Shown piece by piece: positions 8,955 through 59,600 of a stretch of 64,000 bases of DNA (the stretch's first letter is position 1; the number at the start of each line of letters is the position of its first letter). Origin of the DNA: Epinephelus fuscoguttatus (Eukaryota; Chordata; Actinopteri; Perciformes; Serranidae); assembly GCF_011397635.1 (NCBI RefSeq), contig NC_064761.1, positions 29,863,643 to 29,927,642 on the forward strand, written 5' to 3'. The translations under genes were made by a program, and so were the position numbers. The notes under the pieces are model-generated. The model saw nothing but the letters and a program-made list of their open reading frames with translations. It was not told the DNA's origin and did not search any database.

Positions 8955-17541
<8,587 letters not shown>

Positions 17542-18621: not shown

Positions 18622-21600
18622 CTATGTTGTGTGTCTGGCTGTACTGATGTGGCTTATGAGGGTCTGGAGCTCCTGTAGTCTGGATTCCAGCCACTGTGGA
18701 GGTGGTGCAGTTGTGTTGGCTTTACCTTCAGTGAGAGCCTGAAGGGCTTTTAAAGCACTCTCAGCTGTCTGGATGTAGCGGCTGTACTCCTCCTCTGCAC
18801 TGGTCTCCTGCCGAGCTCTCTTTGGACAGGGCTGAGAGGGAGGAATAGTTACAGGGAAATTATACGTCTTTCCGTGAATGAAATTCTCACTCGCAACACG
18901 ATTAAATTTTACATCAAAAGAGGTAGAAATCTTGCCTGTACAAATGAAATTTTGACCTGCTGAGCAGGACAATATGTAAAGATTTTATTGAGATTCTTTT
19001 TTTGCAAAATAAATGAACTACTTTACCATGCTTGTGTTATTGCTAGGGAAAATTTGGACACAGTTACTAGAAATGTATCAAATATTACAGGGTTCCCTCA
19101 GATCAATAAAAAGTCTTAAAAGGCACTGAATCCATTAATCTAAAACTTGGTATTAAAAGGTCTAACTTTTAAAAGTCTAAATGTCTTAAATCTAACTTGC
19201 TTTAAGCTATAAGAAACATATCTCAAAAAATTATACATTTATAAAAACTACATATTTATGTCTGGGCAGTGAAAACCACCAGAAGTGGGGCTTTAATCAA
19301 AAGGTCAGTGCAAATTGCACCCTCACTGAAAAGTGAGGACTCCATTCACATATCCATCTCTCTTTTCCAGTATTTCCGGTCAGATATAAAAATAAATAAT
19401 ATAAAAATAAGTATGTCATGTGAAATCATGAAAAAACATCAGTGTAGTATGTCTAAAAAATCCTGAAAAAAGTCAGATAATAGTATGTCGTCCAAAATCA
19501 TAAAAAACATCATAGTAGTATGTCGCCAAAAATCATGGAAAAAAGTCATAGTATAGCATGTCATCCAAATCAACATTAAAACGTCATAGTATAGTTATGT
19601 TGTCCAAAATCACAAAAAAATGTCTGTAGTATGTCTTCCAAAATAATGATAAAAGGTTAGAGTATAGTATATTGCCAAAAATCCTGAAAAAATGTCATAG
19701 TATCGTATATCGTTCAAAATCATGAAAAAATGTCATAGTATAGTATGATGTCCGAAACAACGTTAAAATGTCCGAGTACAGTATGTCGTCCAAAATCATG
19801 AAAAAATATCATAGTATAGTATGTTGCCAAAAATCCTGAAAAAATGTCATAGTATAGTATGTCCTTCAAAATTGATTTTTGCCTCAAATGAGGCAAAAAT
19901 TTTGCTTGTACAAATGAAATTTTGAGGACAGGACATTATGTAATTATTTTACTAAGATTCTTTCTATAGACATACACATCATACATACATACATATCCAT
20001 CTCTCATTTCAAGTATTTCCAGTCAGATATCAAAATAAATGATATAAAAATAATCATTGATAATAGCTTGGTCCATATTATACTGCTACCACCTACTGTG
20101 CATGTACAGGAGGAGGTAGTGTTGCACTAGCCAGCTGCCACTCAGTGACTTGGACAGTTTAAATATGAAGAAACGCCGTGCATGGTCATGCATATTCAGG
20201 AAGCCTGTGAATGGAGTCTTATTTAACTTGGTGACAACACTAACCTCTGAATTTGCAACAGCTTCAGCAGCCAGTTTGTTCAAAGAATTTTCTTTGTTGT
20301 TCTCCAGCCTCTCATTGTGTTGCTCAATAGCTGCCGTCTCCAGCTTGAGCCTCTGTAGCCGTGACTCCACATCTTCCTGTCCGTTAACAGTCTGAAACAA
20401 AACATAGACCTGTTTGCACTTATGTGTTTTATTTAAGGTTAATCTTCATCGCAATATGTTGTCATCTCCTTACCTTGCTGAGATAGTTCACCACTTTGGT
20501 CTTGGTCTCTTCTATAGTCAGACTCTGGGAAATGACCTCTTCATGGTTTGTAATCTTAAGTACCAACATGACACATTAAGTTTATAACAAGGTATAAACA
20601 GGATGAAGGATGACATCTGAAACATTAGTAGCAGCTACTGAGTTCCTGCTGTACCTCTGCAAACTGAGAGAAGGCCTCCAGGGCGTGCTGATGCAGCAGC
20701 CAGGATCTGTCAGCCAGCAGGACTCCAAACAGGCTGCTCAGCCTCGGCAGAATTTGATTCTGTGACAATAAAAGTTGGTGTAAAGGAGAAAATATAAGAT
20801 CATATTAATATTGCAGGATTTCAGAATTAAACACATTTATATTTTTTATCTACAGTTTCATTTAGGGATATTTTTGCATATATGAGATTCTTTCAGTCTA
20901 TATGATGTCAAAAATATAGCAAATGCACATCTTCAGATGCAAGAACCTAAAGAGATATTTTAAACTGCATACTTGACAATACAAAAGTATTATCAGTAAC
21001 TAAATTGGTAAACAGTAAATAATTGGTATCAGGGTTTGTACTAACAGGGGCAAGTCAAATTCAAAGACTCTTAAGTACTTTTTTAACCACTCCTTTTTAT
21101 TTTAAAGGATATTAGTGCTTCCTGTACAACCATCTATTTGACTGTTAAAAGGCTGAAAAACAAAAATCACTGACGCTGCTCTGGTGTGTGTGTGTTTTGA
21201 AGGTGAGCGAAACATCCTGGTACCGATAATTTACTGGCATTTACTACCCTGTTAGTCCCCTGTAGAGTCATTCAAATAAAACATTACATTTAAGGCAAAC
21301 TGGGAGAACTTGTTGGGACGTGTGTTCTGGGCAATAACAATAAACCAATGTCTAACTTGTCAGGTTTCTTTGAGTGTGTTGAGCCATTTATTTTAACACA
21401 TGCTAACCTTCACACAGGTAAAACATTGTATGTCCATACCTCATCTCAGGTAAGTTTCCACTTAACAGTTTCAGAGTCCATCACCATTCAGTGTCCATCA
21501 AAGGTAAAAGTTTCCATCCATCAATTTCAGTTACAACACACTACAAACTGCTGCCACACTTTACGGTCAAAAAACTGTTCACGCCCCCCCCATCACACAC

Positions 21601-24600: not shown

Positions 24601-27600
24601 CCACATCAGAGGGGGGGAAACGTGCCACCAGCTCCATCTGGAAAAACAAAACAATGATATCAATGTTAGGATCTTGCAAATGTCAATGTGATTTTGTTTT
24701 TTTTTTCTTTTTTAAATATACAGAGACAATCAACAAGCGTCACCCAAAACCTGGGCTGAACTGCACTCTAGACCGGTGGTTTTCAAGGAAACTATGTTTT
24801 TATAAGTCTATAATAACCTGAAAATAAGAATTCCTTATGTTTTTGCTACCTTAGAATGAGCTGTCTACATCTACATTCAAAGTGGATCCTCTTCCATGGA
24901 GTCTACCATGTTGCTCTACAGTAGCCAAGAAGAGACAAACTAAAACACTGGCTCTAGATAGGGCCATTCGCATTTTCACTTTGGCCACCATAGTTCTCCT
25001 ACACACTTGGCACACAGGAGAAGTCGCAGTTCTGCAACCTCACCGCTAGATGCCACTAAATCCTTCACACTAGGCTTTTAGAGGAGTAAACCTGAGTAAA
25101 CGTGGGGAAACTACACAATGCAGGTAATGGTGTGCAGGGCGTGAGGGGTCACTAAATGGTTTGATGAGCATAAAAATGATCAATCGTATGATCTGGCCTT
25201 GCTGTCAGTAGATGTCAATCCGGCTATCTACTTTGTTGATTCCTCATGTTACCTACATGTATATGAAATATAAAAAATCTCTGTATTTATATCAAATATA
25301 ATGTCCTATTTTAAAATTGTGTGATGAATACTCTGCCTCTAAATGTTTAAGGCCACAACAGGACAAAGCAACTTTTTAAACCGCTTTAATTTTGGAACTT
25401 GTGAAATGAAAGGTTAAAGAAACGATGTACCCCACACTGATGCTTTCACAAGTCAATTATGAGTCTCTCTGTATTAAAGGACAGCCAACTTTTATGGCAA
25501 ACAGAGTGATATTCAGAATATGCACTTTTTCTCACCTGCACTTTATGTATGTTATGTTATGAAGGTTCATTAGTACGGTTTTGTATTTCTCTGTAATGTA
25601 GCACAGTGTTAAAGGACAACTTCAGTATTTTTCAACCTGGGCTCTATTTCCCCATGTGTATGTGTGCGTATGATTCATGGGTACAACTCATTCTAAAATT
25701 GGTTCAGCCGGGAGCCGCGAAAAAAGCTAAAATGGTAACGGGGGCAAATGCGTCCCATATAAGTTTGCGCATTAAAAGTGCTTTTTTTCGCCACTGACCG
25801 GTTCAAATTGCCAGTGTTATCTCTGTAAATAGCAGTGACCCCAGGGCAGTGGTGAGTGTGGTATGAGTGGAGTCAGCTGTCAGTCAGTGTTGGAGCAGAA
25901 AGGGGGAGGGCTGCCCCGCTGGGTACTGTAAGTGATATGTGTGTATGAAGTGTGTGTGTTACACTAGAAGAGTCACAGTCAGAGGACAGAGTCTTTTACG
26001 TGCTACCCCCTGAAGTGTTACCGGAGCTTTTGAAGCACTCAAATAAACGGGCCCTTTTCCCGAACGCAAGAACAGGATGTCGTGCAACACCCCGTACAGC
26101 TTTCACAGGCTGCCTTTGTCAGATGGCGAGATGCTGAAGTTGTGGCTAGTTGTGCTACAAATGGATGCTAACACTCCTCTCCAGACACTGCGCCTTGCAG
26201 ACCATCGGGTCTGCAGTGCTCACTTCTCCCAAGAAGACTACTGCCAGCCGAAGAAGAGAAGACATCCAATCCCGAAACACCTCTTCCTCAAGAAAACAGC
26301 TGTCCCATGAGTAGAGAGAGCTACAGACACAGTGGAACAAAGCTTGTGACATCACACAGCCCAGAGGTAAGGGAAAGGCTAGTATGCTAATTACAGAGAT
26401 AAAAATGGCGATCTGAACCGGTCAGTGGCGAAAAAAAAAAGCACTTTTAATGTGCAAACTTATACGGGACGCATTTGCCCCCGTTACCGTTTTAGCTCGT
26501 TTTGCGGCTCCCGGCTGCATCCGCCTCCCTCAATACTGAACCAATTTCAGAACAAGTTGTACCTATGAATCAAACACACACATACACATGGGGAAATAGA
26601 GCCCAGGTTGAAAAATACCGAAGTTGTCCTTTAACAATGTTACTGATACTATTCTTTCTCAGGCCTTGAACTCAAACCACTGTGTTGCCCCGCCCAAAAT
26701 ATAATTTAATAATTAAATTAATATTGTAAACATGCAGTCAACTAATGGCCCTAAATGACAACTATTGGTCAACTGAGAAAGACAGCCCTAACTTAATAAC
26801 TATTAGATGTTAGTCAAAAACTTGGAATACAAAGTTTATATATTTTCCATTGTTTAAGTCACTCTTCCAATGTTCTCCATCTTTTATCTTATTTGGCCTT
26901 TCCATGTTCACATACATTTACTGTACTGTCAATATGGTGGTATTAACAGTGTGTACTCTGTTTTGCAGTGAATTTCAATTGCAAAACTGATAATGATTAT
27001 TAACAATAATTAACAAACAAATAGATGTGACTTGACACTCTAAATTAATTTGTGAGTTCATAAAAATCTAATTTCAGTTCCCAGCATTACTGACCTGGTG
27101 GTTTGGCGTCATGAGGAAAACCATGCGTCTGAGCAGCAGGCCCAGGTGGACCAACTGGTAACACTCAGTGGTGCAGGCTTTCACCTGGGGGTGAAACGGG
27201 AGAAGCAGAGAGGAGGTGAGGAACGGCGTGAGTGTCAGTGTGAAGGCTCAGGAGGAGTCAAAATCACCAGGGCATCAGGGCAGAGGAAAGGTCAAGAACT
27301 GAAGGAGGGGGACGTGTATGGAAACGAGCGGGATCCAGCTTAATCTGATGACGTAATGACGTATGGTTATGAAAAAGTGTCCCCGAGGTCCAACAACACC
27401 AATTGTCACCTCTGCTAGGGTGCCACAGAAAACAGGAAAGACTCCATGCTAATCCATAACCCTACAGAGAGATTAAGGGGATTTAGAGTTATTTCAGAAA
27501 GTGTTGAGGAAGAGGTCGCAGACATGGAAAAACATCCGTGACCTTGTGGTGTCAAGATGGTGAGAGCCAAGATTCTAGGGAGCCTGTAGACTGTCTGGAA

Positions 27601-33219: not shown

Positions 33220-36200
33220 CTTTATCTATATAGCACCTTTCATATAAGAAATGCAGCACAAAGTGCTTTACAATAAGGGCAGGATACGCACTGAGTGCTC
33301 CACATGAAAATAGACACAGTGAACATAAAACAGAACTGATTCATAAAATCATAGAACTGTGAAACTATAAATCATAAAGTAAAGTTTTTAAAGCGTTGCA
33401 GCAGCGTGAAGTGTAAAAAGAAAGTAAAAGCCTAAAAAGAAAGCATTTTAGGCCTCTAACAGGAAGTCAGAGCTGGTTAAAGTCTAAAGTGAACAGATAT
33501 GTTTTTTAACTTTCTTTTAAATCCTTCTTTCTTCTTTGGCTGTTGCTGGGAACCTCCAATAAACCAGCAGCAGAAGATCGCAGTGTTCTTGGAGGAAAGT
33601 AATTAACAAGGGAGTTAGCACTGCTTGGTCCCAGCCCATGTAGGGCTTTGTAAACAAGGAGGAGGACCATAAAATCAATTCTAAATGTAACAGGAAGTCA
33701 GTGCAGAGCAGCTAGGACTGGCCTGATGTGCTCTCTCCTCTTGGTTCTGGTTAGTAGCCGAGCTGCAGAGTTTTGAATGAGCTGATGTCTCTCAGTGGTG
33801 AATGACAGAAGGGCTTAATTACAAAGGGCGTGGCAGTGGCAAGCAGACAGAAACACACAGAAATATACACACCTGTTACGATGTCAGAGACCTCTTCCTC
33901 TGAGGCACTGCTGTCCAGGGAGATCCTGTCCAGCAGCTCCAACAGACCCTTCTGAAGGGAGTAGGCCTCCTTGAAGAGTCCCTGCAGCAGATCAGCCACC
34001 AGGGACAATCGGCCACAGTAAACTACTTCACTCTCCTGAAGACAAAATGCAGAATACAATTAAACTTACTATTTTCATCTCTCCTTGGGTAATGGATTTT
34101 TTGTTCCCTTGCATCCAGGGCAGGAATTAATTTGGCCTTGTGCCCTTGAAAAAAATATCTGCCCTAAAGCCACAGTGGCCTTGATGCCCCGCCCGCACTG
34201 CCCCAGGTGATTTTGCAGTTTTCTCCTCTGCCTCTTTCCTGTCAACACGGCTTTGACACCTGCGCCTTTTGAGGAAAAAATGCGTCTTTTGATGACATTC
34301 TGGATTCTTATTGGGCAACATCAAATGAGACGATGCGTACATCACCAGTGGTGGGTTTGACTCGAGCCTGGCATGAACCGCTCAGACGGGCTATAACGGC
34401 AGTTTGACACCAATCTATCACCAGCCAACCAAGAAACTTCATCAAACGCCCGGGCAGGGATCGGTACCGAGACCCAGTAATAAACGACCCAAGGCAAATT
34501 TAATCAAGACCGTAATAACAGTAAGCTCCGCCATTATTGGCATTACTTTTTAAAGTTTCGGTTTCGGTTTCGGGCTGACCTCCTCCTCACAGCGCACACG
34601 CTCACACACACGCTCACACACACACACACACACAAGACTGGAGTCAGACATCAGCAGAGAGGCCGCGGTGCAGATGAGAGGAATATAACTTCAAGATCAC
34701 TCTAGTTAACAACAGCTACACTTGTTACTGTAAGTAAGTGCAATAAAACCTCTGCCAGCCAAGCCAATACTTTATCAATACATGTGATCAGCATGTAGAA
34801 AGCCATATTTCAACCCGCTCTGTCGTTGAAATAGGATTCTCTCATTCACCGCTATTATGATTTACAATCGCGGTCGACACAAGCATATCGCGCTTGCAGT
34901 GCTAACAGCAAAGTGTTAAAGACAAACTAAAATGAAAGCTGTCTGTATGTTGGCTAACACTATCTGAAGATGCACCTGAGGCAGGCGACCTGCAGACAGT
35001 GAGTGTTCTCAGTAGAGCAGGGACAGAGAGCAGGATGAATGACTGATACTGATGTTTGTCTTCATGCTGAGATAACGTGACTTTCTTCACTCAGTATTGT
35101 GATGTCAGGAGGAATATTTATATTCCAGTGAGATATTATTGGGTTTTAAATAGTGACTTTGTTGTTGTAAACATGACTGTTGCTGCCATGGACTTTAGAA
35201 AACTATATCCTGTGTAACTGACCTATAAGGAAAACGCCAGGAGGTGAGGTGTGTGCATGTGTGTGTGTGTGTGTGGAGGAGAGGAGAGAGGGAGATGCTG
35301 GTAGAGAGATAGTGTATGTTATTAGATACTGTTAATGTCACTTATTATGCTTCTGTGCATTAATAGCTCTTTTTTAGTCTGTTTCTGCATCATGTTGAGG
35401 AGGACCATGCCTGTATATATATAAATATATACAGTACAGGCCAAAAGTTTGGACACACCTTCTCATTCAATGTGTTTCTTTATTTTCATGACTATTTACA
35501 TTGTAGATTCTCACTGAAGGCATCAAAACTATGAATGAACACATGTGGAGTTATGTACTTAACAAAAAAAGGTGAAATAACTGAAAACATGTTTTATATT
35601 CTAGTTTCTTCAAAATAGCCACCCTTTGCTCTGATTACTGCTTTGCACACTCTTGGCATTCTCTCCATGAGCTTCAAGAGGTAGTCACCTGAAATGGTTT
35701 CCACTTCACAGGTGTGCCTTATCAGGGTTAACTAGTGGAATTTCTTGCTTTATCAATGGGGTTGGGACCATCAGTTGTGTTGTGCAGAAGTCAGGTTAAT
35801 ACACAGCCGACAGCCCTATTGGACAACTGTTAAAATTCATATTATGGCAAGAACCAATCAGCTAACTAAAGAAAACGAGTGGCCATCATTACTTTAAGAA
35901 ATGAAGGTCAGTCAGTCCGAAAATTGCAAAAACTTTAAATGTGTCCCCAAGTGGAGTCGCAAAAACCATCAAGCGCTACAACGAAACTGGCACACATGAG
36001 GACCGACCCAGGAAAGGAAGACCAAGAGTCACCTCTGCTTCTGAGGATAAGTTCATCCGAGTCACCAGCCTCAGAAATCGCAAGTTAACAGCAGCTCAGA
36101 TCAAAGACCAGATGAATGCCACACAGAGTTCTAGCAGCAGACCCATCTCTAGAACAACTGTTAAGAGGAGACTGCGCAAATCAGGCCTTCATGGTCAAAT

Positions 36201-39200
36201 AGCTGCTAGGAAACCACTGCTAAGGAGAGGCAACAAGCAGAAGAGATTTGTTTGGGCCAAGAAACACAAGGAATGGACATCAGACCAGTGGAAGTCTGTG
36301 CTTTGGTCTGATGAGTCCAAATTTGAGATCTTTGGTTCCAACCGCCGTGTCTTTGTGAGACGCAGAAAAGGTGAACGGATGGATTCCACATGCCTGGTTC
36401 CCACTGTGAAGCATGGAGGAGGAGGTGTGATGGTGTGGGGGTGTTTTGCTGGTGACACTGTTGGGGATTTATTCAAATTGAAGGCACACTGAACCAGCAT
36501 GGCTACCACAGCATCCTGCAGCGACATGCCATCCCATCCGGTTTGCGTTTAGTTGGACGATCATTTATTTTTCAACAGGACAATGACCCCAAACACACCT
36601 CCAGGCTGTGTAAGGGCTATTTGACCAAGAAGAAGAGTGATGGAGTGCTGCGGCAGATGACCTGGCCTCCACAGTCACCGGACCTGAAACCAATCGAGAT
36701 GGTTTAGGGTGAGCTGGACCGCAGAGTGAAGGCAAAGGGGCCAACAAGTGCTAAACACCTCTGGGAACTCCTTCAAGACTGTTGGAAAACCATTTCAGGT
36801 GACTACCTCTTGAAGCTCATGGAGAGAATGCCAAGAGTGTGCAAAGCAGTAATCAGAGCAAAGGGTGGCTATTTTGAAGAAACTAGAATATAAAACATGT
36901 TTTCAGTTATTTCACCTTTTTTTGTTAAGTACATAACTCCACATGTGTTCATTCATAGTTTTGATGCCTTCAGTGAGAATCTACGATGTAAATAGTCATG
37001 AAAATAAAGAAAACGCATTGAATGAGAAGGTGTGTCCAAACTTTTGGCCTGTACTGTATATGTATGCAAAAACAAAAAAAAGTTGCTCGCTGCTAAAAAT
37101 GTGGCCCATCAACGTTATCTGGTTTTGAAATGCGGCCCAGTTTAAAGTAATTGAATAGCCCTGCTGTAGTTTGTTTGTTTGTTAGCTATCTAACAACACA
37201 TCAAAAATAATTGTAAGCGAGTCTTGTTCAGAGAATCAGTTTATCATGTACACTCAAAAATATTTAGGCCTAATATTTAAGATTGTTTGCTTATAAATAC
37301 ATAAACCTGGTTGTTCTATATTCAAAACACATTGGGTTTATTAGTGCTATTAAATAAATCACATTATTACTTATTATACTCATTACTTGAGTTTGTTTCA
37401 TTTATTCATTTCACAGATAGTTATACATTCTTAGTCCTTAAATTAAATTAATTATGGACGTGGAAATCATTGTTTTATTTTATGGCCTTGCTGCCCTGGC
37501 CTCACTCAAAGGCCAAGTGCCCCTAAAATGACGAAATTCCAGGCCTGCTTGCATCCCTATGTATTCATGTTTCATACAGCGAAAATATGCTTATCACTGC
37601 AGCCACTCATTTTAGGCATTTTCTGTGCATAATGATAGCGTAGTTATCTTATGAATCTTTACAATTCCATCTTAGTAACAATAACATGATTATTTTATAA
37701 ATAACAATGTGAAAAATACTTTCACTTTAGATTTCACAGTCATTGCTGAAGTAAACAGACTAACCCTGCAGTGCTGAAAGGTTTCCCTCAGGACTTTCAG
37801 GATACAAGTTGGTAATGAACGGATGGCATCTAAGTCGGGGGCTTCCTCAAATTTGCCAATGTGACGCACGCAAGTGGACAATGCATCAATTATCTGCATC
37901 ATTGCCTGAAACAGAAAGAAAGATCTTGTGAAAATGTAGGTCAGGAATGAAACGAGAACGATGTTTTGTAGAAAATACATATCAGGTTGTGAGGTACTAA
38001 CTGAACCATTTTTAAATACACAGCTTTGTGATGTAACAACTAAATCAGTAAAGACAACAGTACCTGCAGAATGTTCCTTAGTAAGGCACACAGTTCAGTG
38101 TTTTGACTGGACAGCCCTCCAACCTGGTCCAAGATTTCTTTCATCATGCTGTCAAACATTGTCACCGCCTGCAGACATTTGTGACACACAAGGACAGAAA
38201 TTTTCACACAGACAAATCAATACATGTTTAGGGGAAGATATGAATAAACCAGTAATTCACAAAAATTCTGTCAACAAATAATACAGTCATAAGAGATGCT
38301 TCACAAGGCAAAGACTAGGTGTGACTAATTTTGCAGAAATCCCACTGTCTAATCTACAGATTCAGGGTCTAGAAGAAGAAGAAGATACACTTCATTAATC
38401 CTCGAGGGGAATTTAAATTTCTTTCTCTCTGTTGTCATACACACACAGGCCCATGCACAAACAAGACCAATACACACATTAAATGGAGAGATGTCAGAGC
38501 AAGGGGCTGCCTTGGACAGGCGCCCCAAGCAGTTGAGGGTTCAGCACCTTGCCTAAGGGTACAGTGGCAGTGCCCAGGGGGCAAACTGGCACCTCTCCAG
38601 CTACCAGTCTACGCTGGGACATGTGATCCTCTGGTTCCCAAGCCAAGTCCCTATGGACTGAGCTACACCTTCAGAAAAAGTGAAATCTAAAATTGACCTT
38701 GCAATGTCACATGAGCTGTTTAGATCCTAAAGAGATCATGCCTACATTATTATTATTTTTTTTTTTTTTACCTTTGGTAAGATCTTGGAGAAGCACTCAT
38801 CTTCCAGTTCAGACAAACCAATATGAGGGAGGAACATGTCTGTAATGATCTTCAGTATACCTGGAGATCACAAGGGATGTTATGTTTTAAAGACAGTTCA
38901 TACAAAGTGAGCAGTCTGTAGTTACAAATGGAGTAATGAAGAAACTTACGTATATGATCATCCCAGCTCTCAGAGTTATTATGCAAAGAGTGCAAACAGT
39001 CAAGGAAAAGCACAACATCCCATTAAATTCATTTCCAATGTATAATTATGCCAAATATCAAGATTGCAAACGAAAATGATGACATAAAAGCGTCAGCAAA
39101 ACACAAACTTGTGCCCAGCATCACCCAGAAAATACTTAACATTTACCAAATATTATCATCTTGAAAGGGCTTTATGATTTTGGTGTTCAGTATAAATCAT

Positions 39201-40706: not shown

Positions 40707-41486
40707 TAATGATGACAGATGATTTGGTTTTTACATATTAAGCTTACATAGTCAACTATGGCAGCTGAGTTGTCTTTAGGATACATGAAGTCCTGTATCT
40801 TTACAGGTTTTGGTTCTGTCTCTTCAACAAGCAGTTTATATCCTCCCAAAGTGTACAAAATTCATCTTTGACAAAATGAATAACTTAAGTTGACGCCTAC
40901 AAGGGCCATGCAGGTGGGTGGGTAAAAATGTTTTTCTTTAGATTGTATATAAAAAAGTTCCGGGACTGATGATACCCTCAGGGATCTGGAATTTCTGCTG
41001 GCTCGCATCTAACTACTCCTTTAAATCAGTGTCTGGTCAGCTATTGTTTCACTGATAAGATCTTGAGCATTGAAGCAAATCAGCACGCTTTGGGCTGCAC
41101 CTTTGTTTCCCGACAACCTTAGGTGTTAGCAGCCGCCACTGCAGGAAGAGGTTGACTTCTTGTTTAGGAAATGGGACTTCACATTAATGCTTATCTCTGT
41201 TCACGTACAGTTTATTGGGAAACTGCCTGCTGTGTACTTACACAAAGACATACCAGAATGTACATTTTCCCCACTGAATTAGGTTAAACAAGGCAGCTTG
41301 ATCAACCAGATTCTGAAGTTTATGTTGAGACTTATAAATTACTATAGTGTCAACATTAAAAAAAAATCCTATATCACTTAAATTCCCTTAAAATACAAGA
41401 TGATGGAAAGCATTTTTCGGATTTTTTATTGCTCCCCTACAAATCAAGTTTCACTTACCATGTCCACTTCAACACTGACACAGTCT
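40707..41486. other. Intergenic stretch between firrm and the palindromic element
   Basis: The only notable open frame is on the minus strand at 40855-40738: LYTLGGYKLLVEETEPKPVK, then QDFMYPKDNSAAIVDY, ending at a good donor (GTAAGC). A stop lies just upstream and no acceptor fits, so I do not call an exon. Confidence 0.3.
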
Positions 41487-42173
41487 ATGGGGTGCTGTTT
41501 GTAAAGTGGCTCACGCTGAAAATAACATCAACATTTTGCCACATTTAGCTTCAAACAATGTTTAAAAAAGTGTTGTGAATGTTTTAACATCACCTTTTAC
41601 CACATTTACAGCAATATTTGTTAACTTAGAAATATATTAAATAGTTAAATCTAAGTATTAAATGTGGCACCTAAATGTTAAATGTTTAATCTAAATATTA
41701 AATCTAAATCTAAATCTAAATATTAAATCTAAATCTAAATCTAAAACTAAATGCTAAATCTAAATCTAAATCTAAATATTAAATCTAAATCTAAATCGAA
41801 ATGTTCAATCTAAATATTAAATTTAAATCTAAATCTAAATGCTAAATCTAAATCTAAATGTTAAATGTTAAATCTAAATGTTCTGGGTGAAACTAACTAT
41901 TTAGCTAATATGCAAATTCACACTGCTGGTCACTGGAAGTACCAAAATAAAAGCTCGAGATGGTCAGACTGTGTTTATAGAATCAAATAACAAATTAAAA
42001 CCAACTTATCGGGGGAATGAACACTTGAACATACATTAGCGTGATAATAACTACCTAAAATAACAAAAAACAGCTGTTAGTGTCCCTTTGGAGGGAATCG
42101 CCTTGTTGTTAACAAATACTTCAGGGTAGAAAACCAGCAGACTTAAGCTATATAGATATACTATATATATATA

Positions 42174-43802
42174 CAGTACAGGCCAAAAGTTTGGACACAC
42201 TTTCTCATTCAATGCGTTTTCTTTATTTTCATGACTATTTACATTGTAGATTCTCACTGAAGGCATCAAAACTATGAATGAACACATGTGGAGTTATGTA
42301 CTTAACAAAAAAAGGTGAAATAACTGAAAACATGTTTTATATTCTAGTTTCTTCAAAATAGCCACCCTTTGCTCTGATTACTGCTTTGCACACTCTTGGC
42401 ATTCTCTCAATGAGCTTCAAGAGGTAGTCACCTGAAATGGTTTTCCAACAGTCTTGAAGGAGTTCCCAGAGGTGTTTAGCACTTGTTGGCCCCTTTGCCT
42501 TCACTCTGCGGTCCAGCTCACCCCAAACCATCTCGATTGGGTTCAGGTCCGGTGACTGTGGAGGCCAGGTCATCTGCCGCAGCACTCCATCACTCTCCTT
42601 CTTGGTCAAATAGCCCTTACACAGCCTGGAGGTGTGTTTGGGGTCATTGTCCTGTTGAAAAATAAATGATCGTCCAACTAAACGCAAACCGGATGGGATG
42701 GCGTGTCGCTGCAGGATGCTGTGGTAGCCATGCTGGTTCAGTGTGCCTTCAATTTTGAATAAATCCCCAACAGTGTCACCAGCAAAACACCCCCACACCA
42801 TCACACCTCCTCCTCCATGCTTCACAGTGGGAACCAGGCATGTGGAATCCATCCGCTCACCTTTTCTGCGTCTCACAAAGACACGGCGGTTGGAACCAAA
42901 GATCTCAAATTTGGACTCATCAGACCAAAGCACAGATTTCCACTGGTCTAATGTCCATTCCTTGTGTTTCTTGGCCCAAACAAATCTCTTCTGCTTGTTG
43001 CCTCTCCTTAGCAGTGGTTTCCTAGCAGCTATTTGACCATGAAGGCCTGATTCGCACAGTCTCCTCTTAACAGTTGTTCTAGAGATGGGTCTGCTGCTAG
43101 AACTCTGTGTGGCATTCATCTGGTCTCTGATCTGAGCTGCTGTTAACTTGCGATTTCTGAGGCTGGTGACTCGGATGAACTTATCCTCAGAAGCAGAGGT
43201 GACTCTTGGTCTTCCTTTCCTGGGTCGGTCCTCATGTGTGCCACTTTCGTTGTAGCGCTTGATGGTTTTTGCGACTCCACTTGGGGACACATTTAAAGTT
43301 TTTGCAATTTTCCGGACTGACTGACCTTCATTTCTTAAAGTAATGATGGCCACTCGTTTTTCTTTAGTTAGCTGATTGGTTCTTGCCATAATATGAATTT
43401 TAACAGTTGTCCAATAGGGCTGTCGGCTGTGTATTAACCTGACTTCTGCACAACACAACTGATGGTCCCAACCCCATTGATAAAGCAAGAAATTCCACTA
43501 ATTAACCCTGATAAGGCACACCTGTGAAGTGGAAACCATTTCAGGTGACTACCTCTTGAAGCTCATGGAGAGAATGCCAAGAGTGTGCAAAGCAGTAATC
43601 AGAGCAAAGGGTGGCTATTTTGAAGAAACTAGAATATAAAACATGTTTTCAGTTATTTCACCTTTTTTTGTTAAGTACATAACTCCACATGTGTTCATTC
43701 ATAGTTTTGATGGCTTCAGTGAGAATCTACAATGTAAATAGTCATGAAAATAAAGAAAACGCATTGAATGAGAAGGTGTGTCCAAACTTTTGGCCTGTAC
43801 TG
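42174..43802 (-). mobile_element. DD38E Tc1/mariner element, apparently intact
   Basis: 1629 bp with terminal inverted repeats CAGTACAGGCCAAAAGTTTG, TA on both sides (the target is a TA run), and one full-length transposase frame. It is inserted in the left arm of the long-TIR element. The right end carries a longer terminal inverted block matching the left for about 250 bp (43545-43802 against 42174-42435). Confidence 0.92.
42337..43389 (-). CDS. Tc1/mariner transposase (DD38E, Intruder-like)
   Basis: This transposase would cut and paste its element at TA sites. Starting at MARTNQLTKE gives 350 aa; the frame stays open upstream to 43488, but this Met matches the family start. The N-terminal paired-like helix-turn-helix pair spans about residues 5-110 (ITLRNEGQSVRKIAKTLNVS, with GRPR hinge). 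The catalytic triad is D in VLWSDES, D in FIFQQDN and E in LNPIEMVW. There are 38 residues between the second D and the E, which differs from the DD34E of Sleeping Beauty/Tc1 and matches the published Intruder (DD38E) family. No stop or frameshift is seen. Activity is untested. Confidence 0.92.
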   Translation of the reverse strand: MARTNQLTKEKRVAIITLRNEGQSVRKIAKTLNVSPSGVAKTIKRYNESGTHEDRPRKGRPRVTSASEDKFIRVTSLRNRKLTAAQIRDQMNATQSSSSRPISRTTVKRRLCESGLHGQIAARKPLLRRGNKQKRFVWAKKHKEWTLDQWKSVLWSDESKFEIFGSNRRVFVRRRKGERMDSTCLVPTVKHGGGGVMVWGCFAGDTVGDLFKIEGTLNQHGYHSILQRHAIPSGLRLVGRSFIFQQDNDPKHTSRLCKGYLTKKESDGVLRQMTWPPQSPDLNPIEMVWGELDRRVKAKGPTSAKHLWELLQDCWKTISGDYLLKLIERMPRVCKAVIRAKGGYFEETRI

Positions 43803-44500
43803 TATATATATATATGAATATCTCACATTTGTCATGTCACTATATCACCGTTTAGACTAATCTGTTTGTAAAGTCTATAAACACAATGATTGAACAAACA
43901 TTACTATTTCTGTGTGCACGTTTTGTAATTAATAACATGGTTATCGTAGATTAGTGGGGCTAACCGTTAGCTGTTAGCCCCGTTAGCGGTGTCTGTAATG
44001 ACTCATTAACTCTAAACAGTCTGTGAAAAAAATATTTTTTTCCAGCGGATGTCTTAGTTACAACATGATTGAGCTAACTGGAGTATTTTCATGTCGTATC
44101 CGACAATGGGAGTCTTTTAACAGATGACGTCCTGATGTTAGCGTTGCTGCTGCTGTTAGCTGACGCTGTCAGCTGCGACCACTATGCTTTCTAGACATCG
44201 TGATTTCCCAAAACTGAATAAATACCTCACATAGCAACACAAAACTGCTTTGCTAGTTCAATCATCTTGTAACTAAGACGTATTTTTTTCACGGACCGTT
44301 TAGAGTTAACGAGTCATTACAGACACCGCTAACGGGGCTAACAGCTAACAGCTAGCCCAGCTAATCTACGATAACCATGTTATATATTTACAAAACGTGC
44401 ACACAGAAATAATAATGTTTGTTCAATCATTGTGTTTATAGACTTTACCAACATCAGATTAGTCTAAACGGTGATATAGTGATGTGAAAAATGTGAGATA

Positions 44501-44501
<1 letters not shown>

Positions 44502-44541
<40 letters not shown>
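44502..44541 (+). repeat. (TA)n microsatellite at palindrome right arm
   Basis: This TA run is the right-arm partner of the TA run that was the Tc1 insertion target in the left arm (about 42160-42173 / 43803-43814). Confidence 0.85.
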
Positions 44542-44542
<1 letters not shown>

Positions 44543-44977
44543 GCTTAAGTCTGCTGGTTTTCTACCCGGAAGTATTTGTAAACAACAAGGCGATATATTG
44601 GCTAAATATTTAGTTTCACCCAGAACATTTAGATTTAACATTTAACATTTAGATTTAGATTTAGATTTAGCATTTAGATTTAGATTTAATATTTAGATTT
44701 AACATTTAGATTTAGATTTAGCATTTAGATTTATATTTAGATTTAATATTTAGATTTAGATTTAGCATTTAGATTTAACATTTAGATTTAGATTTAATAT
44801 TTAGATTTAACTATTTAATATATTTCTAAGTTAACAAATATTGCTGTAAATGTGGTAAAAGATGACATTAAAAAATTCAAAACACTTTTTTAAACATTGT
44901 TTGAAGCTAAATGTGGTAAAATGTTGATGTTATTTTCAGCGTGAGCCACTTTACAAACGGCACCCCATACACAATCT

Positions 44978-46944: not shown

Positions 46945-48664
46945 GGGGCATTCTACCGAATATGTGCAAAGTTAGGCTGGAAATATTTTGAAATTTTGTA
47001 TGTTTTATTTCCAAAACTTTGTCCCTATATATATTGTACCATATGTAAAGGTCACATATCTAGTAAAATGACTGTAGTTTTTTATATTGTATTTTCAGAC
47101 TGTTTTCGAATGTTTTTCCTCTCCCAAAATTTGTCACTACCGAAACATATAGTATTATATTACACAAAAAAATATATATCAACCTGTTATGCTTGTTCCT
47201 TCCCTTGTTTAAAGATTTAAATTTTTACAAATTTTGACTGAAGATTTTCACAATTAAATCGATAAAAAATAATATTTTAACAAATTTCAAAGTTCAAATT
47301 ATAGAATCCTTCAAAATCTAAATGCAATCTTTCTTTGTAAAATGCATAACGCTGATCAGATTGATTTCAGAGTTAATAATTGATGAAACAGAACATAAAT
47401 GTAACCGATTAGCATCATAATACTTTAGTTGATAACTCAATATACTTTATTTTTTACAAAACACCCAGTGTTTTGGTAGTGACTGCACTGTTTCGGTAGT
47501 GACTGTCCTGTTTCGGTAGTGACCATTATACTGTTTTTAAGGTTGCATCGTATTTCCTCAAATGTATGCCTTATGGTGGGAATTACAAATTCAAAGACAA
47601 ATGTTTTGTGGTCAATAAAACAATTTAATTTTTGAGAGGGCAGAGCAGAGTAGAACAGAACAGAGCAGAGTATAGTAGAGTAGAGCAAAGTAGAGCAGAG
47701 TAGGACAGAGCAGAGCAGAGTAGAGTAGAGCAGAGCAGAGTAGAGTAGAGAAGAGTAGAGTATAGAGTAAAGCAGAGTAGAGTAGACCAGGGTAGAGTAG
47801 AGCAGAGCAGAGCAGAGAAGAGCAAGACTTTGGAGCACAAAATTATGGGGTTTAACTCCTGACCATCCCATTTTGTCACTACCGAAATGATCATGTCACT
47901 ACCGAAACTTTACCATAGGTTTCGGTAGTGACTGTTTTGGTAGTGACATTCCTAGCTATTTTTCAGGATAACTAAAGAATGCTAACAGTCACATGGCTAA
48001 CAAGCACATGTTTGAAGAGTTGTTCGCACAGAAAAACAATATTTTGCATAAACCCCCCAAATTTTTACATAATTGAAGAGAACTTGTGTTCGGTAGTGAC
48101 AGTTTTAAAAGTTACACTGATTTTCAGACTTTGGAAGGCATTTATTTAAAAAATGATGGGAGTCAGCGACTTACCATGCAGCCATGTGGGATGGGGGTGC
48201 AGTACTACCCCCCTTCTCAGAAATTCAGGGGTGTGGCTAAAATCCAGACTCAAACAGAGCATTAAAACTCTTGTGTTTCAGTAGGGACACTATTTTTTTA
48301 GCATAGTTTCTTAATTTAAAAATTAATCCCACAATACATCTAAATCTTTCAACTTCTGTTCAAACTTTATCACAAAGATGTTTTAAATTAGACTTTTGAA
48401 AAAAATATGAAAAATGTTTTAAGTGTTATTTACATGAATTGAATTTTAGAGGTCAGGGATGGGGACAGCTACTTCCCAATAGAAAGTACCCTATAAATGG
48501 AGATTTTGTATATATTTAGCTTATCACTTTCTCATTTAATGTCCTGGGTTTAAATAGGCCATAACATAATCTTTGTAAATATCTATGTCTGATTACTCAG
48601 TTTTATTATTTTTGTCGTTTTTTGGTAAGGGACAGCACTTTGCACATAATCGGTAGAATGCCCC
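46945..48664. mobile_element. Unassigned TIR element with repeated CGGTAGTGAC motif
   Basis: The ends pair as GGGGCATTCTACCGAATATGTGCAAA (left, 46945-46970) and the complement of the same with one change (right). Both sides have ATAT next to them (46941-46944, 48665-48668), a possible 4-bp duplication. Inside, TTTCGGTAGTGAC or its complement occurs repeatedly (about 47130, 47470, 47490, 47510, 47875, 47895, 47925, 47935, 48090). A (GAGTA/GCAGA)n minisatellite fills 47640-47825. No transposase frame exists. Superfamily unknown. Confidence 0.7.
47640..47825 (+). repeat. GAGCAGAGTA-type minisatellite
   Basis: Tandem AGAGTAGAGC/AGAGCAGAGT pentamer repeats. They lie inside the TIR element and are responsible for long Ser/Leu/Tyr open frames on the minus strand. 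Confidence 0.9.
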
Positions 48665-48786: not shown

Positions 48787-50404
48787 CAGTGGTGGAAAAA
48801 AGTTTTCGGACACCCTTAAAATCTCAAATATTATCATGAAATATTTGTGGAAAAATCTTTTTTGTGTTTCAAAAGGTGTGGCTGCATTAGACAGATACAA
48901 ACAAATACAAATTATATTTTTTGTTTATTGTTTACAAGAAAAACTAACAAAACTAAATTCTTGACAGTTTCAATATGTCAGTTCTCAACATTGTCGGTAT
49001 CAAAGTCAACAAATAACAGAGAATGTGTTCAAAACTGAACAAAAAATAAATAAACCATCACATCATCAAATTAATATTTAGTAGTCCTGCCACTGGCACG
49101 TAGTAGAGCTCTAATCCTGGCTGGCATGTTCCCCACGAGCCTTTCACACTGTTGAATGGCTAATCTTGTCCCATTCTTCTTGAATTACTGCTTTTAATTC
49201 TTCTAAATTCTTTGGTTTATGCTTTGAAACAGACCTTTTGATAATCCACCACAGATTTTCAATGGGGCTCATGTCCGGGAGGATTGAGCTAGCCACTCTG
49301 AACCTGGATACTGTGCTCCTGCAGCCAAGTTCTACTGGCCTTGGATGTGTGGCAAAGGGCATTATCTTGTTGAAACATCCAGTTTTACCTCAACGGAACA
49401 GTGCACGCAGAAGGGAGCATGTGGGTTTCGAGAATGGTACAATACTTGGTAGAGTTCAATGTGCCATCACAGACAGTGAGATGACCAACACCAGCAGCAC
49501 TCATGCATCCCCAAACCATGATACTGCCTCCACCATGCTTGACAGTAGGTACTGTACATGTTGGAGATAATGCTTTGCCTGGCCTTCTGCGTACCCTCAC
49601 ATTAGTAGGAGGAAGATAAAGCTGGAAACTGGACTCATCTGACCACAAAATCTTCTTCCAATTCCTGGCTGTCCAGTTCTTGTGTGCCTGGGCCCAACGA
49701 CGCCGGGCTAACCTCTGTCTCTCATTGATCAGGGGCTTCTTGATAGCCTTGTAGGACCTTAAGCCATGATCTAAAAGTCGGCCACGCACAGTGCGGGTGG
49801 AACACTGGACACCAGTTTGGTTTGACCACTGCTTCTGAAGCTCCTGTGATGTCATTCGGCGGTTTTGCCTGCACATGCGGATCAGGATGCAGTCATTTCT
49901 TGCTGAAGAAACCCTTGGACGCCCAGATCTTGGTTTGTCTTCCAAGCTGTTGGTTCGTCTGTATTTCTGCAGAGTGTATCCAACTGCTGAAGGACTGCAT
50001 CTGCACTTCCTGGCTATCTGGCGGCAGCTGTACCCTTCCTGGTTGAGAATCTTTATCTTCAGGCGTGTTTCCTGCGTTAGGTTCCTTGTTTTAGCCATTT
50101 TTTGTGTCTGAAGAACTTTCAAATGTGCTGGCTTTATGTAGACACGAAGCTTGGCAACAAGAATTGTGTCTTTTAATAAAAAGAACGACCTTCATCACTG
50201 GTACCAAAATGACCCAATACTCAAAATTTCTTATGTATTTTTATGGAACCAATCAATTTTAAGTTTTTAATGGCTTTTTTAGGATTTATTTAGTATTTTG
50301 GCTGTGACTGTACTAAAAGAAATTGCACTTGAAGACCTAAGAGTGATTCTTAATGCAATATTTCACAAATGCATGGGGTGTCCGAAAACTTTTTTCCACC
50401 ACTG
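48787..50404 (-). mobile_element. Tc1-like (DD34E) transposon
   Basis: 1618 bp, TA on both sides, with inverted termini CAGTGGTGGAAAAAAGTTTT and its complement. It is inserted into the 3' UTR of the LINE fragment. It belongs to a different Tc1 lineage from the DD38E copies: different termini and transposase. Confidence 0.92.
49144..50097 (-). pseudogene. Broken Tc1-like transposase
   Basis: The frame starts MAKTRNLTQETRLKIKILNQ and is open through WSDESSFQLY and VKHGGGSIMVWGC to about 49385. It then breaks: FQQDN (about 49370) and SPIENLWWIIK (about 49240) lie in other frames, with a TAG near 49289. Correcting by eye, the second D and the E are about 34 residues apart. The frame disruptions make it inactive. 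Confidence 0.85.
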
Positions 50405-56607: not shown

Positions 56608-59600
56608 ATGGTAAGTGTAGAGGTAATAATTTAAACACAGTTCTCTTAATCAGTGATGCATTTATGATATAACTAATTGATCTCTTTTTTACTTTACTTT
56701 ACAGGAGTTGTTTTTAGGATTACTTCAGACCCGTGGATCTAAGACCTCATGGATCAGCTTGACCTTTCTATGCTCAAGTATGTAAATCTAATGCAGACTG
56801 AATCTTTAGCGTCCCATTTTTGACTTCACTTTTCTTCTGTGTATTACTTTTTCAAATGAATCCACATTACCTTATAACCTAATGTGTTGTCTCTGCCCTC
56901 CATCCTCAGTGGTGTGCATGTGGACGACAGTAGATGGCTGGTCCTACTTCTACTCTGACAACTACATGAACTGGCAGCAAGCTAGAGACTGGTGCCGGGA
57001 GCACTACACAGACATGGTGGCCATCCAGAACCAGGAGGAGATCAAGCATCTCGATAGCTGGCTGCCCAAGAAATCCACCTACTACTGGATTGGGATCCGC
57101 AAGATCAATGATGTCTGGACCTGGGTAGGAACAAACAAGGCTCTGACAGCAGAAGCAACCAACTGGGCAATTGGTGAACCAAACAATGGCAAGAGTGGAC
57201 ACAATACAGGGTTGAATGAGGACTGCGTGGAGATGTACATTAAAAGGAGTGCACAAGCCGGCAAATGGAATGATGAGCGGTGCGGGAAGCTGAAGACCGC
57301 TCTGTGCTACGCAGGTGAGCAAGAGTTAGGATGCAAGAGCTGCTCATTTTAACTGCCTTGGTTTAGTTCATTATTAGGGAATCTATTGATTTAGCTGTTT
57401 TAAATTATTAAATGATCATGATTTAAAATTAAAAGCTCAGATAAATAGTTCTATTTTATGCAAGCTATATAAAAATACTTCTTCTTCCTCCAGCTGCCTG
57501 TAAGAACGACTCATGCCTTTACGGAGAGTGTGTGGAAACCATCAACAGCCACAAGTGTGAGTGCTTTGAAGGCTTTTATGGAGAGCAGTGTGAGCAAGGT
57601 AAGAAAACACTACTTTAAAAGTTTTAAAGTTTAAGTCACTTTCAGCCAGGATCTCATATCTGATTATGTTTTGCTTTCTTTGTTGGCAGTTGTTAAGTGT
57701 AACGAAGATGAAGTGACCGTTCCGAATAAAGGAAGTGTAGAATGCACTCACAAGTACGGAGACTTCTCCTACGACTCCTCGTGCCAGTACGCCTGTGAGG
57801 AAGGATACCAGCTGAGTATGTCAAGACCTCTGATATGCACTGCCTCCAAACAGTGGTCAGAGCAGCCTCCTACATGTGAATGTGAGTATCACAAAGCTAC
57901 CAAAAAAAGTAAATGAAGTAGTGTGATACTGACCAATGTTATTGTGATCTCAAGTAATCATATTCGAAGCAACAGAGTTTTATTATCACAGTGATGGAGC
58001 CTGTTGTAATGTGTTGTTGATGGTCCTGTCGTCCACAGTGGTCCAGTGTCCGGAGCTGTCCAGCCCAGCAAGAGGATCCATGAAGTGCTCCGATCCTCTG
58101 GGTCCCTCCAGCTTCCAGTCCACCTGTGTGTTTACCTGTGATGAAGGCTACGTACTGGCTGGTTCTCCATCTAACACTCTGCAATGTGAAGCGTCAGGAT
58201 TTTGGAACGCCTCACAGCCATCATGTGTTGGTACGCCCGAATTTTTATGTTCTTACCTGGCTGGATTTTATACTTCACATTATATCGATGATATTTTGTA
58301 TTTAAGTCTATTATTACGAGGAAGAAGCTGTATGATGTTTTTGAAAAAGCTCCTGTTGACCTGTTTGGTTCCCCCTCTATTTTGCAGCTGTGCAGTGCCC
58401 TGATCTCCAGGAGCTGGACAATGGTGTTGTCAGGTGTGGAGATGATGTAGATAGGATGTTCAGCTACGAAAACACCTGCAGCTTCAGCTGCAACCCCGGC
58501 TACCACCTGGTGGGACCGAGCGAGGTGACCTGCACGTCAGCAGCTGAGTGGAGTCAGAGGATGCCTCGTTGTGAAGGTGAGGGCACACTTAATATTTAAT
58601 CCAAACCACCTTCAGATGATTAAGATTAGCTTTCTTGTTTGTGCCTTTGTTACAAACATACTAATTATACCTTCTTTTTTTTTTTGCTTTTCCTGTGTAG
58701 CCATCACTTGCCAGAATCCAGAGGGAGAAGCTCACCTCATCACCCTTTGCAGCCAACCTTTGTCTGACCTGCGGCCAGACTCCACCTGCAGGTTCAGCTG
58801 TGAAGAAGGCTTCGAACTGCGGGGAGCACACACCACTCAGTGCTCTGAGGATGGACAGTGGAGTGAAGCCATACCTACCTGCAAAGGTATGGTAGCTTAC
58901 GTTCACATAAATCTCTGCTCTAGTTTGCTACAGTTTTTACAGTTTTTGTTTTCTAATTTTGTTCTATGCCATGACATGTCATCATCTTGATTTTTCCTTT
59001 TTAGCAACTGGATGTCCTGTTCCTGAGATCCCCACAAATGTCCAGATCAGCTGCAGCCCCTCTCCGTCTTCACCTGTTTCTTCTGTGACTCAACATCCAC
59101 TTGGTATGGTGTGCACTTTCAGCTGCGACGAAGGTCATGAGCTGCAAGGTGCACTCAGCATGGACTGTGCAAATCCTGGCCAGTGGACCTCCACACCACC
59201 GAACTGCACAGGTATACACATGTACCCATTTTGCCTGCGCTATTTGTAATGCCTGCTAAAAGTGCATACATAAGCTACAGTGAGATCTCCTTTATGAATA
59301 TGTGAAGGTTACCATCTAAATTTTTGCTGTCTTCTCCCACACAGCGGTGAGATGCCCACTGCTCGAGGCGCCTGAAAACGGTCATATCAACTGCTCAAAC
59401 AGTGAATCAGTGTACAACTCACAGTGCTCCTTCGCATGCAATCAAGATTACTCATTAATCGGACATGAGCTGCTGACCTGTGATCGCCATGGCAATTGGA
59501 CTGGAGAGATACCCACCTGCAAAGGTAAAAGAGAGAGGCAACAAATGTTAGAAGAAATTTTAACATAAGAACCATATAAGAATACCAGAATAAGAGTTAA

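Follow-up and report, generated by a model that had tools for sequence, protein, structure and literature searches.

Complete families of IS3EU DNA transposons always begin and end with TA (TA..TA) and are usually flanked by 6-bp duplications of the target, and the HHCC motif is absent from IS3EU as it is from IS3, IS481 and IS1202, according to the available sections of one survey (PMC10045372). For fungal IS3EU members, the accessible portion of another report gives ends of the form TAYGG..CCRTA (PMC12730594). IS3EU is already known in fish, and a table of four teleosts contains a single IS3EU entry of 17,838 copies; judging by the order of the columns, it belongs to zebrafish (PMC4746887).

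The locus described here lies in a window of 64,000 nucleotides of Epinephelus fuscoguttatus DNA (C10:29863643-29927642), and the genome searched for related copies is one assembly of 1.047 Gb in 26 contigs. The window harbours a palindromic element that is very probably a non-autonomous IS3EU DNA transposon, the larger coding copies of which share its ends. Its parts and insertions are as follows.

41479..41485, + strand: left target-site duplication CACAGTC, 7 bp, 6/7 alike
41486..44969, no strand: outer non-autonomous IS3EU-type element, ends TATGGGGTGC..GCACCCCATA
41486..42072, + strand: left IS3EU arm, matching the terminal inverted repeat (TIR) of the 12.6-kb coding copy on C9 (84.7% over 667 columns)
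41679..41879, + strand: TAAATC-type hexamer array of the left arm
42073..44594, no strand: inner palindromic module, split by Tc1; outside any outer arm in 4/5 fetched copies
42174..43802, - strand: nested Tc1-type transposon, 1,629 bp, CAGTACAGGCC..GGCCTGTACTG, TA-flanked in a (TA)n tract
42337..43488, - strand: Tc1 transposase open frame, 383 codons from the first TTG
44077..44253, no strand: unpaired palindrome centre, about 177 bp
44595..44969, - strand: right IS3EU arm, shortened, the counterpart of 41912-42097 being gone
44626..44809, - strand: mirror-image hexamer array of the right arm
44970..44976, + strand: right target-site duplication CACAATC, partner of the left CACAGTC

The outer element measures 3,484 bp including the nested Tc1 and 1,853 bp excluding it, and extends one base further on each side than the 41487..44968 given in a first-pass annotation of the same DNA. 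An inverted-repeat search finds the outermost arms (41483-41663/44792-44972) to be 95% complementary and the array-bearing arm pair 87%, while the inner arms, 87% complementary over 277 columns, enclose a centre close to the 170 bp estimated in that annotation. The inverted-repeat architecture it described is confirmed, as are its TAAATC arrays in the arms; it did not report that the longest and strongest arm pair of the region (42162-42443/43533-43814, 99% over 282 bp) belongs to the TIRs of the nested Tc1. The segment 41912-42097, correctly recognized as lost from one arm, is absent from the right arm of the window copy; as both arms of 16/20 two-ended copies retain at least part of it, and only 4/20, the window copy among them, have it in a single arm, the loss looks like a local event. 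Elsewhere in the window there are a further inverted-repeat pair (25603-26640, 256 columns, 83%), two arrays built on a related 38-bp minisatellite unit and separated by about 2.4 kb (16581-17069 and 19423-19872), a GCAGA-type pentamer array (47640-47824) and a C-type lectin domain frame (56882-57352, PF00059 2e-24), which, judged by eye, we take to be selectin-like.

For the analysis of ends and flanks, 30 loci fetched from a genome search together with the window gave 31 loci, 20 of them with both ends and 11 with a single end; the query for the first loci included one Tc1 arm, which biased the set towards Tc1-bearing copies. Among 12 further loci (L039-L050) were six new two-ended copies, one already sampled (L043 is L020) and five with one end in the stretch examined. 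With the ends projected from the inner TIR and the motif left out of the procedure, TATGGG..CCCATA, and with it the TA..TA termini of IS3EU, was found in 20/20 two-ended copies; TA..TA was also present in 20/20 and 6/6 when duplications were scored, where the motif itself placed the ends. The usual 6-bp duplication of IS3EU is equally found, being perfect in 16/26 two-ended copies and 5/6 or better in 21/26. The first 20 copies contribute 13 perfect duplications and 16 of at least 5/6, and the six later ones three perfect, two of 5/6 and one of 3/6 (L047). The flanks of different copies are unrelated to one another, and among 380 mismatched flank pairings of the first 20 copies three are perfect at 4 bp and none at 5 bp or more. 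Three of the 26 copies show no clear duplication (L013 4/6, L029 1/6, L047 3/6), while a perfect 7-bp duplication is found once (L025), the window copy being 6/7 at this length.

The 9-bp flanking repeats of the first-pass annotation, ACACAGTCT/ACACAATCT, are made up of CACAGTC/CACAATC plus the first T of the element on the left and its last A on the right, so that what appeared to be 9 bp is an imperfect 7-bp duplication extended by terminal element bases. A 7-bp duplication beside fixed terminal bases mimics 9 bp, hence the temptation to read such a locus as Mutator. The long TIRs with tandem arrays would be accounted for by a long-TIR or foldback element of the Mutator-like (MULE) kind, flanked by 9-bp duplications, and in the register of that annotation 8/9 bases are indeed alike in the window and in L025. 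In the same register, however, at least 7 matching bases are reached in none of the other copies of the 26-copy set, a perfect 9-bp duplication is found in 0/26 copies in either this or the TA register, and the modal length is 6 bp and not the 8-10 bp anticipated for further copies; together with the coding copy discussed below, this makes a MULE highly improbable. The same low probability attaches to another superfamily with 6-7 bp duplications, for example Dada, the duplication length of which overlaps with that found here. Dada elements, as characterized in the available part of the source (PMC3706591), have no terminal inverted repeats and insert in small RNA genes, snRNA or tRNA, whereas the copies here possess 0.4-0.8 kb TIRs and lie in unrelated surroundings, and an Rfam search of the whole window gave no match.

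The terminal sequence TATGGGGTGCCGTTTGTAAAGTGGCTCAC.., from which the left end of the window element differs by one mismatch, is also carried by larger coding copies. Besides shorter ones, the 100 perfect TIR matches listed include two convergent pairs 12.6 and 18.2 kb apart, and a genome search with PF24764 (rva_4, integrase core) gave at least 146 matches, some of them inside exactly these two pairs; a link of PF24764 to IS3EU by name was not found in the literature searched. The copy on C9 (L061+L062) comprises 12,627 bp between a perfect 6-bp duplication, GTGTTA. Its TIRs of 813/825 bp are 95.4% identical and contain the same hexamer arrays, and its first and last 40 bp are exact mirror images. 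A second copy, on C11, is decayed, with stops in the transposase matches, the pieces of which include one of 91% amino acid identity over 173 residues, and with flanks that, read by eye, agree at 3/6 and give no clear duplication.

The C9 transposase frame, on the + strand and 370 codons long, matches PF24764 (2e-69) and rve (2e-9) and, among NCBIfam models, IS481 (3e-19), IS3 (3e-12) and ISNCY (5e-4), all below the NCBI curated cut-offs, as would be expected of a distant relative. Its presumed catalytic triad is D132, D189 and E222, counted from the start of the open frame, and its only three Cys all follow the first D, so that the region preceding the core contains no HHCC pattern. It is the C9 partner, and not the window element, that displays the IS3EU hallmark of an IS3/IS481-like DDE frame without HHCC and with the first D 100-300 positions from the N-terminus. 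The solved structures matching this frame are retroviral integrase cores only, and weakly so (4e-5). No MULE family is among the Pfam matches of 13 C9 queries, which represent 10 distinct frames and part of the ORFs. A coding relative with the same ends, of the sort that the first-pass annotation proposed to look for, exists with an IS3/IS481-like integrase core (PF24764/rve) in place of a MULE transposase. Because of the ends, the 6-bp duplications and the IS481/IS3-like coding partner, the window element is assigned to non-autonomous IS3EU and not to MULEs; this putative membership relies on ends, duplication length and kind of transposase. The earlier proposal of a non-autonomous long-TIR DNA transposon family is accordingly retained and its Mutator-like affiliation given up.

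The family is large, as a 28-bp terminal pattern with at most 3 mismatches detects 620 + 653 = 1,273 TIR ends genome-wide and the reversed control pattern none under the same conditions. Palindromes can be mis-assembled and a single assembly was examined, yet a reading of the palindrome as an assembly error, which the first-pass annotation had itself raised, or as a local inverted duplication that is not mobile, is barely conceivable: the same structure, ends and short duplications are dispersed over many chromosomes. As the structure recurs in this way, the palindrome is neither due to chance nor an assembly artefact of the locus. In size, 15 of the 26 two-ended copies fall at 1.7-2.1 kb and four, with Tc1, at 3.1-3.5 kb; six of 0.3-1.3 kb are without the centre, and L029 measures 1.6 kb. 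The terminal 150 bp differ from the consensus by a mean of 3.4% (40 ends), or 2.7% minus one misaligned end. Homogenisation of the arms by gene conversion was considered and found no clear support, the mean identity of the 150-bp ends being 0.946 within versus 0.941 between copies (20 copies), and 0.960 versus 0.954 for the 19 copies remaining when L032, the second end of which is misaligned, is left out; between left and right arm, array length shows only a weak correlation (Spearman 0.48, p 0.05, 17 copies). Two loci with about 260 bp matched, L042 and L046, were rejected as coding relatives, as their frames are LINE-like by eye, with Pfam neutral. These frames (L042:2027-2866 and L046:2-789), judged by eye only, adjoin single TIR ends and are probably nested or truncating insertions.

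The inner module of the element (42073-44594 minus Tc1) is abundant by itself, with 2,622 first-look candidates in the genome, 40 of which were scored. Among the five fetched copies, L065, L067, L068 and L069 have no outer-arm match within the 2.9-3.0 kb examined and L066 has one. The C9 copy is without this module, except for matches of 88 and 41 columns, and the centre is seen in two structural forms, one of them with a truncated inner arm. The inner-module end GAGGGAATCGCC occurs 1,190 times at up to 3 mismatches, and no convergent pair of it within 10 kb was found among the first 100 of the 1,190 places. These observations suggest an origin of the non-autonomous family by capture of the inner palindromic repeat between a pair of IS3EU ends.

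The Tc1 insertion in this module has TIRs of 270 bp, 98.9% identical, and its open frame combines Tc1-type HTH and DDE domains (PF01498 + PF13358) and matches the structure of the Sleeping Beauty catalytic domain (5cr4) at 4e-55; MARTNQL is the likely start of the transposase, which would give about 349 codons. TIRs, HTH, DDE and TA, by which Tc1/mariner elements are recognized, are all present in the insert, the TA duplication being inseparable from the (TA)n tract. A second copy of the family is located at 35432-37056 of the window, with a BLAST identity of 98.7% to the insert, and an open frame at 49385-50122 encodes a different Tc1-type transposase (PF01498 6e-20).

Four outer copies, the window copy, L009, L010 and L047, have a Tc1 of the nested family at one and the same (TA)n tract, L047 having been chosen for its 3.5-kb end spacing. 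This shared position is what would be seen if the outer element and Tc1 moved as one unit with Tc1 as cargo, and the inserts of the window copy and L047, which agree in orientation and resemble each other most among the nested ones (99.1%), possibly have a shared origin. In L009 and L010, on the other hand, Tc1 is reversed relative to the outer element and these inserts are for this reason read as independent, and the nested copies are 94.1-99.1% alike, with no clear excess over the 99.0% between the window insert and the separate copy at 35432-37056. Joint movement is therefore improbable, and the Tc1 is best regarded as a later insertion into an IS3EU-type element.

The coding copies carry more than a transposase. 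On C9, an exon-like frame on the strand opposite to the transposase matches HECT (PF00632 5e-9), and two neighbouring frames, without a Pfam match, were taken for HECT exons. All three have C11 counterparts at 89-93% amino acid identity, and the first also has one next to a more distantly related integrase (L057, 54% over 50 columns). Genome-wide, 68 HECT loci were listed from at least 139 matches (129 of 183 candidates scored) and 107 integrase loci from at least 146 matches (150 of 284 candidates scored). As the HECT frames of the C11 copy are missing from the former list, it is incomplete. Within 10 kb of a listed integrase locus lie 31/68 listed HECT loci, compared with 0.14 expected under uniform placement, an assumption that need not hold for transposons or at chromosome ends; the PF24764 loci in this count are integrase matches, of which only a part can be attributed to IS3EU. 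Conversely, only 30/107 listed integrase loci are accompanied by a HECT match from the list, and the two genes are on opposite strands in 27/32 pairs and on the same strand in 5/32. A literature search at the level of titles and listings found no description of a HECT-type gene in IS3EU. Cumulatively, these data point to a HECT-type companion near many IS3EU-like integrases, and slightly favour the view that IS3EU here is often a two-gene element, an IS481/IS3-like transposase plus a HECT ubiquitin-ligase gene usually on the opposite strand, kept across diverged families and perhaps acting on host proteins, with the palindromic non-autonomous forms as its satellites.

What is observed, namely the ends and duplications, the common TIRs and arrays, the coding partner and the nested Tc1, is consistent with the following course of events. 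A C9-like transposase would most likely bind the element ends in trans and cut the element out in a cut-and-paste manner, and the element would be inserted at a target site opened by staggered cuts 6 bp apart, to leave duplications of 6 and rarely 7 bp. The long array-bearing arms are common to the non-autonomous element and to the 0.8-kb inverted repeats of the coding element itself, and the hexamer arrays might serve as binding sites. An unrelated palindromic repeat, abundant in the genome, forms the centre, where the order of events is putative; in a later step, the (TA)n tract of the window copy would have received the Tc1. Three layers are nested at this locus, IS3EU, inner palindrome and Tc1, the last of which occupies one (TA)n tract shared by four copies. 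Since this genome also contains a coding partner of the palindrome, trans-mobilisation becomes testable.

Compared with described systems, the family resembles IS3EU/GingerRoot in TA..TA, in TAYGG..CCRTA, described for fungal members, and in 6-bp duplications, as far as the available texts go (PMC10045372, PMC12730594), and in the IS3/IS481-like DDE frame without upstream HHCC in the partner copy. It differs in its 0.8-kb TIRs with hexamer arrays, in having a non-autonomous form that is palindromic and encloses a foreign palindrome, and in HECT-type exons opposite the transposase where fungal TET+ members have alpha-kinase and TET/JBP genes. Likened by description, the Tetris foldback element of Drosophila virilis is also non-autonomous, with long TIRs bearing tandem arrays and a variable middle, but has duplications of 8-10 bp and, in the portion of the source available, no coding partner found (PMC4079207). 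With Tc1/mariner (Sleeping Beauty-like) elements the nested insert shares the TA target and the Tc1-type HTH and DDE domains, although here it is merely an insert, distinct from the palindrome proper. MULEs have long TIRs in common with the element and are set apart from it by duplication length and by the transposase of its partner.
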